From: Limisphaerales bacterium
GTDB lineage: Bacteria; Verrucomicrobiota; Verrucomicrobiia; Limisphaerales; UBA11358
Direction of reading: 5' to 3'
Assembly: GCA_003134375.1 (NCBI GenBank)
Contig: PLAY01000102.1
Coordinates: 1-38,427 of the forward strand
Length of the DNA stretch: 38,427 nucleotides
Positions 63 to 3,532 of the stretch are shown here, in pieces (position 1 is the first letter of the stretch; each line of letters starts with the position of its first letter). A program made the position numbers and the translations under genes. The notes beneath the pieces are model-generated. The model was not told where the DNA came from and searched no databases. It worked only from the letters and a program-made list of their open reading frames with translations.

Positions 63-1022
63 TCAAGATTCAACTGCTGAAAGTTTTTCCGTCAGCGCCA
101 CGAACTGTTCCAAACCCAACTTCTCTGCGCGTTCCTGCGGCGAGATTTTTAATTCTTCAAATGCGCCCGTCAATTTCTCCACGGGCCAGTCTTCGCGCAA
201 CAATTTCAGCATTTTTTTCCGTCGCTGGGAGAATGCGCGCTTCACAATTTTCACAAAAATCGCGCGCTGGTTTTCGGGCAAAAGCGGCGCGGCGCGGCGG
301 ATCAAAGCCACGCACGCGGAGTCCACGTCCGGCGCGGGGAAAAAACAGCCGGCTGGAATCTTGAACCAGTCGCGCAGCTCGTAGTCGAGTTGAATCAGCA
401 ACGTCAGCAAGCCGTAATCTTCGCCACCAGCTTTGGCCATGAGCCGGCGGGCGACTTCGAGTTGCAGCGTGGCAACCATCCGTTCCGGCCGTTGGGGTGT
501 TTGCGCCAGTTCGACGAGAATCGGCGACGCTACGGAGTAGGGCAGATTGGCCACGAGCTTCCAGTCGTGCCAATCCAGTGGAACAGCCATCCTGCCGGTC
601 TTCGATTTATTTTCAGATGACAAGCTGGAAGCCTGTCCCACTTTCAGAAATTCCAGCGCGTCGGCGTGGAGCAAAATAAATTTCGGAGGGGCGAGCTCTG
701 CGAGTCCCTGATCTTTTGCTTTGGCGGAGTTTGGGGCTCGTGGAACTCGCCCCTCCGAAACGGATGAAAACCGCTCCCGTAGAAATTCCACCAGCCGAAC
801 GTCTTTCTCAATCGCCAAAACCTCACCGGCATTTTCCAGAAGCAATTCTGTCAGCGGACCCAAGCCCGGCCCGATTTCGAGAACTTTGTCCGTCTTTTTC
901 AATTCCGCCGCATCAACGATGCGCCGGAGTTGGTTGCCATCGTGCAGAAAATTCTGGCCGAGGGATTTCGTCAGTTGAATCCCGCGCGTGGCCAGCAGTT
1001 CCCGCATTTCAGAAAGCTTCAC
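63..1022 (-). CDS. rsmA: 16S rRNA dimethyladenosine transferase with two in-frame repeat inserts
   Basis: RsmA (KsgA) dimethylates two adjacent adenines in helix 45 of 16S rRNA during small-subunit maturation. The N-terminal QNFLHD motif (residues 23-28), SAM-binding GPGLGPLT (51-58) and catalytic NLPY (159-162) are all present. The family is usually about 270 residues; this one has 319. The excess is explained by two low-complexity stretches, residues about 88-113 and 127-148, each coinciding with an inverted repeat in the DNA and each lying between conserved motifs. The start is GTG at 1022. An ATG five codons later is an alternative, and neither has a clear ribosome-binding site. The identity is secure. 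Whether the inserts leave the enzyme active is unknown, but the frame and all motifs are intact. Confidence 0.95.
   Translation of the reverse strand: MKLSEMRELLATRGIQLTKSLGQNFLHDGNQLRRIVDAAELKKTDKVLEIGPGLGPLTELLLENAGEVLAIEKDVRLVEFLRERFSSVSEGRVPRAPNSAKAKDQGLAELAPPKFILLHADALEFLKVGQASSLSSENKSKTGRMAVPLDWHDWKLVANLPYSVASPILVELAQTPQRPERMVATLQLEVARRLMAKAGGEDYGLLTLLIQLDYELRDWFKIPAGCFFPAPDVDSACVALIRRAAPLLPENQRAIFVKIVKRAFSQRRKKMLKLLREDWPVEKLTGAFEELKISPQERAEKLGLEQFVALTEKLSAVES
579..644. repeat. Palindromic repeat inside rsmA, GTRGGRC class
   Basis: Imperfect inverted arms lie at about 585-602 and 619-641. On the coding strand the element begins GTGGGACAGGCTTCC and ends near a CCGGCAGGATGGCT arm. It encodes VGQASSLS...KTGRMAVPL in RsmA, the same peptide pattern and reading phase as the element in purH at 14124-14210. 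Its ends resemble those of the element at 18137-18196. Confidence 0.75.
681..760. repeat. Inverted repeat inside rsmA, second family
   Basis: Perfect 15-nt arms TTTCGGAGGGGCGAG (681-695) and CTCGCCCCTCCGAAA (746-760) continue inward as an imperfect stem for about 13 more bases. The element is translated as RsmA residues about 88-113, between the SAM-binding half and the NLPY motif, a stretch absent from ordinary RsmA proteins. Confidence 0.8.
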
Positions 1023-1036
1023 TGGGAGAGATTAAA

Positions 1037-1245
1037 CCACGGATGGACACGGATGGACACGGATAAAACGACGCACGGAACACGTTCTTTTCCCCTCGCC
1101 CCGCCCAAAGCGGGGAGAGGGACAGGGCGAGGGGATTTGAGTTTCACGCACCCCGACCCTCTCTCCCAACTCCGTTGGCGGAGAGGGAGACAACGCAGGC
1201 GCGTACTTCGGTGTTCAATCCGTGTGCATCTGTGTTAATCTGTGG
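1037..1245. repeat. Composite nested repeat between rsmA and aminotransferase
   Basis: The gap between the two genes is bounded by 28-nt inverted arms at 1037-1064 and 1218-1245, identical at 23 of 28 positions by eye. The left arm holds a tandem 10-mer GGATGGACAC. Inside are further dyads: CCCCTCGCC at 1092-1100 with GGCGAGGGG at 1126-1134, and a second C/T-rich and G/A-rich pair around 1157-1190. The right arm runs into the end of the aminotransferase gene and contains its stop codon (1235-1237). No gene of its own is visible here. Confidence 0.75.
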
Positions 1246-2590
1246 CCAAAATCTTTTGGAGTTCGGCGACGGCTTTGGCCAGTTGCGCTTCGGTAATCGT
1301 AAGCGGGGGCGTGAAGCTGATGACGTTACCATACTCCCCTTCGGGCAACAGAATGAAGCCGTGCTGCAACATGATTTTAATGGCCTGCATGGCCGCGTCC
1401 GTGGCCGGCCGGCCGTCGGACAAGTGCAGTTCGACGCCGGCCATCAAACCCAAACCGCGCACGGCGATTTGCAATTTCGGGTTTGAAATTTTCGATTGCA
1501 GTTCCCCGAGCAAAAACTTGCCGAGTTCCGCGCTGCGTTCCGGCAATTTGAGTTTTTCAATTTCCCGGATTTGCGCCAGTGCCATGGCGCAACCGACGGG
1601 ATGGCCGAGGAAGGTGCTGGTATGAATCGCCTCGCCGCGCGATGCCGGCCACGCGGTATCCATCAGTTCGGCGCGGCCAACGCAGGCCGAGAGCGGGAAA
1701 CCGCCCGTGAGCGCCTTGCCCAGGCAGATGAGGTCGGGCATGACGCCGGTGTGTTCGCAGGCAAACCATTTTCCGGTGCGGCCAAAGCCGGTGTAAATTT
1801 CATCGAGAATCAGCAGTGCACCGTGGTCATCGCAAATTTTTCGCAACCGCGGCAGAAATTCCCCGGGCGGAACCTGGATGCCGCCGCGCCCCTGCACCGG
1901 TTCGACCAGAATCGCCCCGATATGTTCGCGGTGAAAAATCCGGCGGATGGACCATTCCACGTTGGCCAGGTCGGCGGATTTTTTTGGAAACGGCACGAAG
2001 TGTCCAAATTCGCGAAGCTGAAAATGAAACGGGTTGCGGAAAAAATTGCGATGGGTGGCGTTGAGCGCACCGTAGCCGAGGCCATGATACGCACCCTCGA
2101 AGGCAATCACCCCGCGCCTGCCGGTGGCCAGAAGCGCGGTTTTGAATGCGGACTCAACGGCTTCAAAACCGGAATTGCTGAAAATGGTTTTCCCGCGAAT
2201 CGGTGAACCGGTGAATCGGTGAATCGGTTCACGATTCAACGGTTGAACGGTTGAAGGGTTCAACGATTTGCTCCATCGCTCGAAGGTGATCCGGCTCAAG
2301 TCGCGGGCGAGTTCCGCCTTGCGCGCGTGCGGTTGCACGTCGCCCATGGCGTGCAAAAGCCGGGACATTTGTTTTTGACCGGCCTTGACGACGGACGGGT
2401 TTGCGTGACCGGCGGCGGCGACGCCAAACGCGGCGGTCAAATCGAGGTATTTTTTCCCGTCAGCGTCCCACACGTGAACGTCTTTGGCGCGGTCCCAAAC
2501 AATGGGCCAGGAGCCATCCGGCTCCATGAACACTATGTTGCGCGACTCGTAATCACGCAGCGTCTCAAGAACTTGACTGGTTTTACTCAC
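1235..2590 (-). CDS. Class III PLP-dependent aminotransferase, substrate unknown
   Basis: A fold-type I, class III (ornithine/GABA family) aminotransferase of 451 residues that moves an amino group from an amine or omega-amino acid to an oxo acid. The cofactor motif ILDEIYTGFGRTG (residues 261-273, Asp263 for the pyridine nitrogen) and the Schiff-base lysine Lys292 in LGKALTGGFP are present. Residues about 108-131 are a foreign-looking stretch encoded by tandem repeats at 2197-2269, and residues about 366-375 may be another. The last codons and the stop fall inside a dispersed repeat, so the natural C-terminus may have been altered. Its position after queE on the same strand, with only a few bases between, suggests co-transcription. 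Glutamate-1-semialdehyde, GABA or diamine specificity cannot be chosen from sequence alone. Confidence 0.85.
   Translation of the reverse strand: MSKTSQVLETLRDYESRNIVFMEPDGSWPIVWDRAKDVHVWDADGKKYLDLTAAFGVAAAGHANPSVVKAGQKQMSRLLHAMGDVQPHARKAELARDLSRITFERWSKSLNPSTVQPLNREPIHRFTGSPIRGKTIFSNSGFEAVESAFKTALLATGRRGVIAFEGAYHGLGYGALNATHRNFFRNPFHFQLREFGHFVPFPKKSADLANVEWSIRRIFHREHIGAILVEPVQGRGGIQVPPGEFLPRLRKICDDHGALLILDEIYTGFGRTGKWFACEHTGVMPDLICLGKALTGGFPLSACVGRAELMDTAWPASRGEAIHTSTFLGHPVGCAMALAQIREIEKLKLPERSAELGKFLLGELQSKISNPKLQIAVRGLGLMAGVELHLSDGRPATDAAMQAIKIMLQHGFILLPEGEYGNVISFTPPLTITEAQLAKAVAELQKILATD
2197..2269. repeat. Tandem 8-mer plus palindromic repeat inside aminotransferase gene
   Basis: Four consecutive 8-mers of the form GAATCGGT (one reads GAACCGGT) occupy 2197-2228. 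They are followed by a GGTTGAAC-rich stretch with a perfect TTCAAC-G-GTTGAA dyad at 2235-2247. Read in the gene, this gives about 24 residues (108-131) between two conserved parts of the aminotransferase, so it looks inserted and kept in frame. Confidence 0.75.
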
Positions 2591-3339
2591 TAAACTCCCC
2601 GTTGTTCCGGCGGCCAGATGATTTTGTGCATCTGCACTTGAAACCGCACCGGCAGCGCGTCGGCGATGATTCGTTCCGCCAATTCGCGCCGCGAAACCGG
2701 CGTCTGGCCGGCGGGAGCCGGTTTCAATGATTTATTTTGCTGCTCCGGCGCGAGCGGATGCCCCCACGAAAAAAGCAGGGGGCATACCACATTCAGCCTG
2801 TGTTCGGCGATTTTTTGCCTGGCCCACTCATAATCTTCAACGGTGCCGATGACAAACTTGATTTCATCAGTCGCTTTCAGGTGTTTGAGGTTTTCCCAGC
2901 AATTGCGTCCGGCCTCGCCGCTGCCGGGGCATTTCAAATCCACGATGCGCCGGACGCGCGGGTCAACCGGCGCGATGTCATGCGCACCGCTGGTTTCAAG
3001 CAACACGGTAAAACCGTCGTCACAAAGCAATTTCATCAACGGCAGGGAATTTTCCTGGAGCAACGGTTCGCCGCCCGTAAGTTCAACCAAAGGCAAGGAG
3101 TTGAGAGTTGAGGGTTGAGGGTTGAGGGGCGGGCGGAATGGCGCGGCCAGCCGCCGGACTTCCGTGCAAATTTCTTCGAGTGATTTTCTTTTGCCTTTGG
3201 CAAAGGCGTAGGCGGTGTCGCAATACGAGCAGCGCAAATTGCAGGCAGTGAGCCGGATAAAAACGCACGGCAGCCCGGCGAAGGTGCTTTCGCCTTGCAA
3301 GCTCAAATAGATTTCGTTGACAACCAGTGTGTCGGACAC
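2590..3339 (-). CDS. queE: 7-carboxy-7-deazaguanine synthase (radical SAM)
   Basis: QueE is the radical SAM enzyme that turns 6-carboxy-tetrahydropterin into 7-carboxy-7-deazaguanine in queuosine precursor synthesis. With a GTG start at 3339 the protein has 249 residues and opens with VNEIYLSLQGES, the expected N-terminus. The cluster cysteines are Cys33, Cys37 and Cys40 in CNLRCSYC, and TGGEPLLQ (residues about 88-95) is the SAM-contact motif. The open frame extends upstream to 3450, but that part matches nothing in the family. Residues about 71-83 (PLNPQPSTLNSLP), just before the TGGEP motif, are encoded by a tandem repeat at 3098-3127 and look inserted. No other queuosine genes are in the window. 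The stop overlaps the first base of the downstream aminotransferase gene. Confidence 0.9.
   Translation of the reverse strand: MSDTLVVNEIYLSLQGESTFAGLPCVFIRLTACNLRCSYCDTAYAFAKGKRKSLEEICTEVRRLAAPFRPPLNPQPSTLNSLPLVELTGGEPLLQENSLPLMKLLCDDGFTVLLETSGAHDIAPVDPRVRRIVDLKCPGSGEAGRNCWENLKHLKATDEIKFVIGTVEDYEWARQKIAEHRLNVVCPLLFSWGHPLAPEQQNKSLKPAPAGQTPVSRRELAERIIADALPVRFQVQMHKIIWPPEQRGV
3098..3127. repeat. Short tandem repeat inside queE
   Basis: GAGTTGAGAGTTGAGGG is followed by further GTTGAGG copies, about four degenerate 7-mers. It is translated in queE as a Pro/Asn/Ser-rich segment next to the conserved TGGEP motif. It resembles the low-complexity repeat type seen in other genes here rather than an enzyme segment. 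Confidence 0.6.
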
Positions 3340-3532
3340 GCTGGCAGTGTAGCGCCCCAACGTAAAAAGGAAATGGCGGTGATTTGCCCGGCACGATTCG
3401 CGGTTTTCTTCTGCGACCTCATCTGTCACACGTTCCGGTGGCGCCGGCAACCGACAATTACAATCACGCGGTTTTAAACGTGACGAACGCCGGTCAATTT
3501 TCCAATTGAGGCCCCCTGAAGATTTCGCGCGC

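Follow-up and report, generated by a model that had tools for sequence, protein, structure and literature searches.

The Rickettsia palindromic elements (RPE) are the classic case of dispersed palindromes lying in frame within conserved protein genes (PMC2229807, PMC3733652), and a guanylate kinase bearing an RPE stays active (PMC2229807). A 2013 catalogue of in-frame REP dimers found Opitutus terrae (Verrucomicrobia) to be the richest in intragenic GTAG repeats. Many ORFs of this species and of other bacteria contain GTAG dimers in frame, more than half of the intragenic REP inserts encode 20–30 aa, some ORFs are hit twice, the targets include DNA ligase and RNA helicases, and two Xanthomonas species differ in the REPs that they carry at roughly one position of recB (PMC3733652). 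REPINs consist of two inverted REP units and a spacer and are hairpin-capable; they have been described as extragenic and tied to a cognate RAYT (PMC3116915).

The palindrome analysed here, a member of what we call family A, lies in rsmA of a Limisphaerales bacterium (Verrucomicrobiota subdivision 3), within a stretch of 38,427 nt (the window). Like the RPEs, family A is a dispersed palindromic repeat found in frame in conserved genes; however, RPEs, which occur in obligate intracellular bacteria, measure 105–146 bp or are CGTC-tagged, whereas family A elements measure 63–82 bp, differ in sequence and occupy a 4.2-Mb genome of another phylum. The family is REPIN-like in that two REP-like hairpin units stand in inverted order with a spacer. 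It is unlike a REPIN in having no adjacent RAYT among the Y1 genes examined and in the intragenic position of 15 of its ~40 copies. Unlike the GTAG and CGTC REP superfamilies, the family carries no GTAG/CGTC tag; its consensus starts TCGGAGGGG, and its ends read TTTCGGA. O. terrae shares the phylum of the window genome, but its intragenic REPs are GTAG-tagged and family A is untagged; moreover, in comparison with Opitutus, the sister species studied here show several families alternating at shared loops of several genes. Our literature search, the coverage of which left out most subscription journals, found no paper on repeats of the Limisphaerales clade. In-frame REP/RPE insertion is already known; family A, untagged and with no close RAYT, and the multi-gene turnover look new.

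Two palindromic inserts in RsmA

The rsmA (ksgA) gene for the 16S rRNA (A1518/A1519) dimethyltransferase occupies positions 66–1022 of the window on the minus strand and encodes 319 aa in an intact reading frame, with the stop codon at 63–65. The product scored 214 bits against TIGR00755 (cutoff 171) and 159.6 bits against PF00398; its identity as RsmA is evidenced by the score above the equivalog cut-off, the KsgA fold and the presence of the GPGLGPLT and NLPY motifs. The family A element spans positions 681–760 (loop A), with arms at 681–708 and 733–760, a spacer at 709–732 and a TCGGA...TCCGA core at 683–758. The outermost 15 nt of the arms, TTTCGGAGGGGCGAG at 681–695 and CTCGCCCCTCCGAAA at 746–760, are perfect reverse complements, and the extended arms of 28 nt are 86% complementary around the 24-nt spacer. 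The inverted repeat is not due to chance, since both its IR score (18, against a maximum of 7.5 over 30 shuffles) and its folding z-score (−8.25, with 0 of 200 shuffles folding as well) are far beyond those of shuffled sequences. The mRNA hairpin, at −47.1 kcal/mol, is stable and could affect the translation of rsmA. A preliminary description of this DNA had perfect 15-nt arms encoding RsmA residues ~88–113; the arms are as described, and the interval is more exactly residues 88–114, read from the minus strand.

The other insert, listed as the first in that description, is a family B element at positions 578–641 on the minus strand (loop B), reading GTGGGACAGG...CTGTTCCAC on the coding strand. 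It matches at 80% the family B copy that the related genome G031 carries in glnE, and it folds with a z-score of −3.95. The element starts with GTGG, a variant that has been reported for GTAG-20 of O. terrae (PMC3733652). Close relatives lack the insert, and loop B of the window RsmA exceeds theirs by 18 aa; the few longer loops B in the orthologue alignment are all in distant rows. The claim of two inserts in rsmA was hence correct, while the added length of ~48 residues attributed to them has to be lowered to 42 (~24 + 18) relative to insert-free orthologues.

An AlphaFold2 model of the window RsmA, computed from 49 sequences, reached a mean pLDDT of 90.2, and its best Foldseek match was KsgA of B. 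subtilis (6ifs, E 1.6e-24). Only two blocks were poor, residues 91–110 (58, 63) and 131–150 (63, 63), with the rest at 82 or above, and these blocks coincide with the two inserts. In the model, the KsgA fold is confident, and both inserts form loops of low confidence on it. Loop A follows a helix that ends in ...RERF and precedes the strand at 114–119, and the alignment of the protein to solved KsgA sequences breaks after residue 87 and restarts at 153. The structural model was also checked for placement of the insert residues in the conserved core, and no such placement was found. The low model confidence at the inserts and their absence in relatives point to surface exposure, and the insert-bearing RsmA presumably still works as an enzyme.

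Further repeats were observed near rsmA. A family D copy lies in the intergenic region upstream, at positions 1091–1135, and matches CCCTCTCC...GGAGAGGG at 88% over 1093–1134. The class-III aminotransferase-like ORF at 1235–2590 (minus strand) has an apparent in-frame repeat of its own at ~2195–2265 (NPSTVQPLNREPIHRFTGSPIRG, from GGTGAATCGG/CGGTTGAACGG repeats). The ORF at 2590–3450 (minus strand, QueE-like by eye) contains PPLNPQPSTLNSLP, which resembles a peptide in mfd of the window genome (L246); its presence in both suggests a further coding repeat family.

Family A in the genome and within genes

A DNA search of the same genome (G000) with the repeat gave 41 blast matches, some of which count a single place twice, once per strand. 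With 23 full-length copies as input, a covariance model located ~40 family A loci, 34 of them at E<=1e-6, in a catalogue that rests on search matches in a draft assembly of 201 contigs and 4.2 Mb. The consensus is TCGGAGGGGCGAGCTCTGCGAGTCCC, a variable spacer and GGGGCTCGTGGAACTCGCCCCTCCGA. Family A matches were found in 23 of the 59 genomes of the relatives search and in 3 of 288 other members of the phylum (E<=1e-6, strict filters), all three being weak; the named relatives, found via the RsmA protein, are metagenome-assembled genomes of Limisphaerales / Verrucomicrobia subdivision 3. The high repeat activity proposed in the preliminary description is borne out by the ~40 genomic copies and by the assignment of the other rsmA insert to a different dispersed family. 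In genome G048, a first look gave ~300 family A candidates and ~30 Y1 transposase matches; the candidates are partly clustered (e.g., C31:16583–18049), with spacings that look like multiples of ~97 bp (tandem amplification).

Covariation among the 23 copies defined two units within the rsmA element: a first REP-like unit at 683–708 (plus strand), with a local stem pairing 688–692 with 704–708, and a second, inverted unit at 733–758 (minus strand), with a stem pairing 733–737 with 749–753. For these local hairpins (alignment columns 6–10 with 22–26, and 57–61 with 73–77), 96.1% of cells were paired and 18 showed double changes, against a shuffled mean of 3.1. Their covariation score was 0.280 versus 0.106 for shuffled alignments, and 0 of 500 shuffles scored as high, a count that is not a probability because the sequences are related, and with which slid controls agree. 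The long hairpin was rejected as a conserved structure (0.075 versus 0.071 shuffled, 23 copies). Since covariation favours the local hairpins over the long one, family A is best seen as an inverted pair of REP-like units around a variable spacer, in a REPIN-like arrangement.

A RAYT was sought beside family A. The window genome has eight Y1 genes, the nearest family A copy being ~0.8–1 kb off, and none of 30 Y1/RAYT loci from six related genomes has closely flanking family A. A RAYT was therefore rejected as the family A mobiliser, as no Y1 gene examined in the own genome and the six relatives is closely flanked by the family; such an enzyme could still act on it from a distance. Several Y1 genes carry repeats other than family A. 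Two Y1/RAYT-like genes of the window genome, L071 (G000:C50:20190–23432) and L074 (G000:C159:11723–14839), are flanked by their own palindromes (GGAGCGCGGAGCATTGCTCCGCG and GGAGCGCCGGCCTCCGGCACGGC, respectively) and are plausible REPtrons for other families; the L074 palindrome resembles family C.

Fifteen of the ~40 copies lie in frame within genes, 14 of which are conserved. The conserved hosts are rsmA, a DUF3516 helicase, a PNP_UDP_1 nucleosidase (MTAN-like), ligA, nadC, glnE, lpxB, ispG, a DsbH/YyaL protein, an M3 peptidase, mfd, prmA, hemL and an acyltransferase/AMP-ligase fusion; the fifteenth is a 476-aa ORF without a Pfam match. A sixteenth copy lies in the leader of a T2SS pseudopilin. 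The reading frame is open in all 15 intragenic copies, which are read mostly in two sense frames (SEGRVPR.P and RRGEFHEP), and the flanking protein domains run on across the element. The other ~25 of 40 copies, most with no conserved ORF running through them, may be intergenic. Because coding DNA normally makes up most of a bacterial genome, an intragenic share of 15/40 suggests that family A avoids genes, an estimate that uses this general proportion. At least one extra in-frame repeat-like peptide each was observed in ligA (G000:C111, L279), mfd (G000:C99, L246) and the DUF3516 helicase (G000:C69, L281): RRAGVPPAS...RRDACPT, VGQASRPSS...CDACPT and RPRPDPLPQERE...LPGGEGRGEGE, respectively.

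Different families at shared sites

Of 91 distinct RsmA orthologues, 57 have a short loop A and 34 a long one. The long loops comprise three with family A, three with B, two with C, four with D and 22 with other, unclassified sequence, such that a palindrome was recognised in 12 of the 34, always in frame. Family A is present in the window genome, G022 and G005, in the same reading frame in all three. Family B (GTAGGACAGGC..., GTAG-type) occurs in L114, L115 and L124, family C in G023 and as an eroded copy in L043, and family D in L042, L117, L054 and L059. Families B, C, D and F are each multi-copy in the genomes examined. This comparison with relatives lacking the insert, together with the low pLDDT of the insert residues and with loops that in relatives are short or hold other sequences, upholds the earlier suggestion of a tolerant region.

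In an RsmA tree computed without the loops, a single clade of family A carriers was rejected (AU p=0.00014), as was a clade of the window sequence and G022 (AU p=0.0018); the nearest tree relatives of the carriers have B, C or no insert. The window spacer best matches the G022 rsmA spacer (score 12 versus 7 for the next best; mean −3.1, sd 4.9), with 3 mismatches between the two copies over 52 arm positions and 6 over 24 spacer positions. On the simplest reading of these sequences, the family A element of the window and G022 would be an old shared insertion with later loss or replacement in L114, G023 and G025. Since the G005 rsmA spacer shows no special resemblance to that of the window copy, the insertion in G005 may be independent. 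The preliminary description had taken the two rsmA inserts as independent; they are so of each other, with the qualification that the family A insertion itself appears old and common to one relative.

Similar exchanges were found at other genes. The glnE site holds family A in the window genome, B in G031 and a fifth family, E, in G023 and G025; the MTAN-like site holds A in the window genome, G031 and G022, D in G025, and E in G023 and G005; and the ligA site holds A in the window genome and F in G031. The multi-copy status of family E is only partly confirmed (short arm matches). At nadC, the window genome carries family A, G005 a family A-like remnant, and G022, G023 and G025 an empty site. 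The lpxB loop, with family A here, contains short tandem repeats (KAEGRRQKAEG) in G022 and G023 and other inserts in G031, G025 and G005 (loci L199, L205, L216, L220, L207). Comparison of empty sites gave no clean target-site duplication, which is not callable because the sites are too diverged (species ~75–85% identical in DNA). Homogenising of the arms by gene conversion was also considered: the arms are ~87–90% identical and the flanks 78–84% in several shared-site pairs, a comparison that leaves out the G000/G022 rsmA pair, and the difference was too weak for this candidate to be kept.

Origin and retention of the rsmA insert

We hold it highly probable that the rsmA repeat is a non-autonomous dispersed palindrome, an old in-frame insertion tolerated in a dispensable loop with turnover of families. 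Family A would have entered loop A of RsmA long ago and in frame, and would have been retained because the frame is open and the loop immaterial to the fold. Non-autonomous palindromes would insert widely and, within genes, survive only at dispensable loops where they do not interrupt the frame. Loops of housekeeping proteins in the Limisphaerales clade would hence be tolerated sites at which unrelated palindromes arrive, decay, vanish and are replaced. Selfish palindromes, tolerated at surface loops and repeatedly turned over, are the most likely explanation; we infer mobility, selfishness, and replacement rather than repeated independent gain.

A more active process is conceivable, though doubtful: the loops of RsmA, GlnE, the MTAN-like protein and LigA would be exchange sites where the resident palindrome is actively replaced, for instance because its hairpin invites a further insertion or repair event, and the loops would evolve by swapping repeat cassettes. 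A regulatory role, in which the repeat would act at the RNA or DNA level through mRNA stability, transcription attenuation or post-transcriptional excision and lie in a gene only by coincidence, is quite unlikely. The very stable mRNA hairpin and the ~25 copies that may be intergenic would fit such a role, but the open frame of 15/15 intragenic copies is unneeded for excision or attenuation, unrelated families share the insertion sites, and covariation keeps the local hairpin of each unit, not the full-length one. There is very little likelihood that the inserts were recruited, with the palindrome-encoded peptide forming a useful new RsmA surface such as a ribosome or partner contact. Retention of family A at rsmA in G000 and G022, with fewer differences in the arms (3/52) than in the spacer (6/24), and the single reading frame of the three carriers are consistent with recruitment; yet at this position close relatives either lack an insert or hold an unrelated one, the frames in which family A is translated in other genes differ (SEGRVP or RRGEFHEP), and the model shows no confident structure at the insert. 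A local origin by polymerase template switching at rsmA, or an assembly artefact, is scarcely credible: the assembly is a draft and chimeric assembly is known to occur at inverted repeats, but ~40 copies follow one consensus, the element recurs at this site, with a related spacer, in the independently assembled G022, and the flanking protein domains continue across the element.

The same RsmA loop holds other, unrelated repeats in relatives, and under the preferred reading of tolerated selfish palindromes such elements would keep reshaping housekeeping proteins without visible breakage. In a genome of ordinary size (4.2 Mb), part of the coding sequence of core enzymes would at many sites come from selfish palindromes. 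One loop of one protein with different inserts or none offers natural replicates for measuring insertion tolerance and loop lengthening, and the inserts would explain the over-long annotations of RsmA, LigA, LpxB and other proteins in these Verrucomicrobiota genomes.
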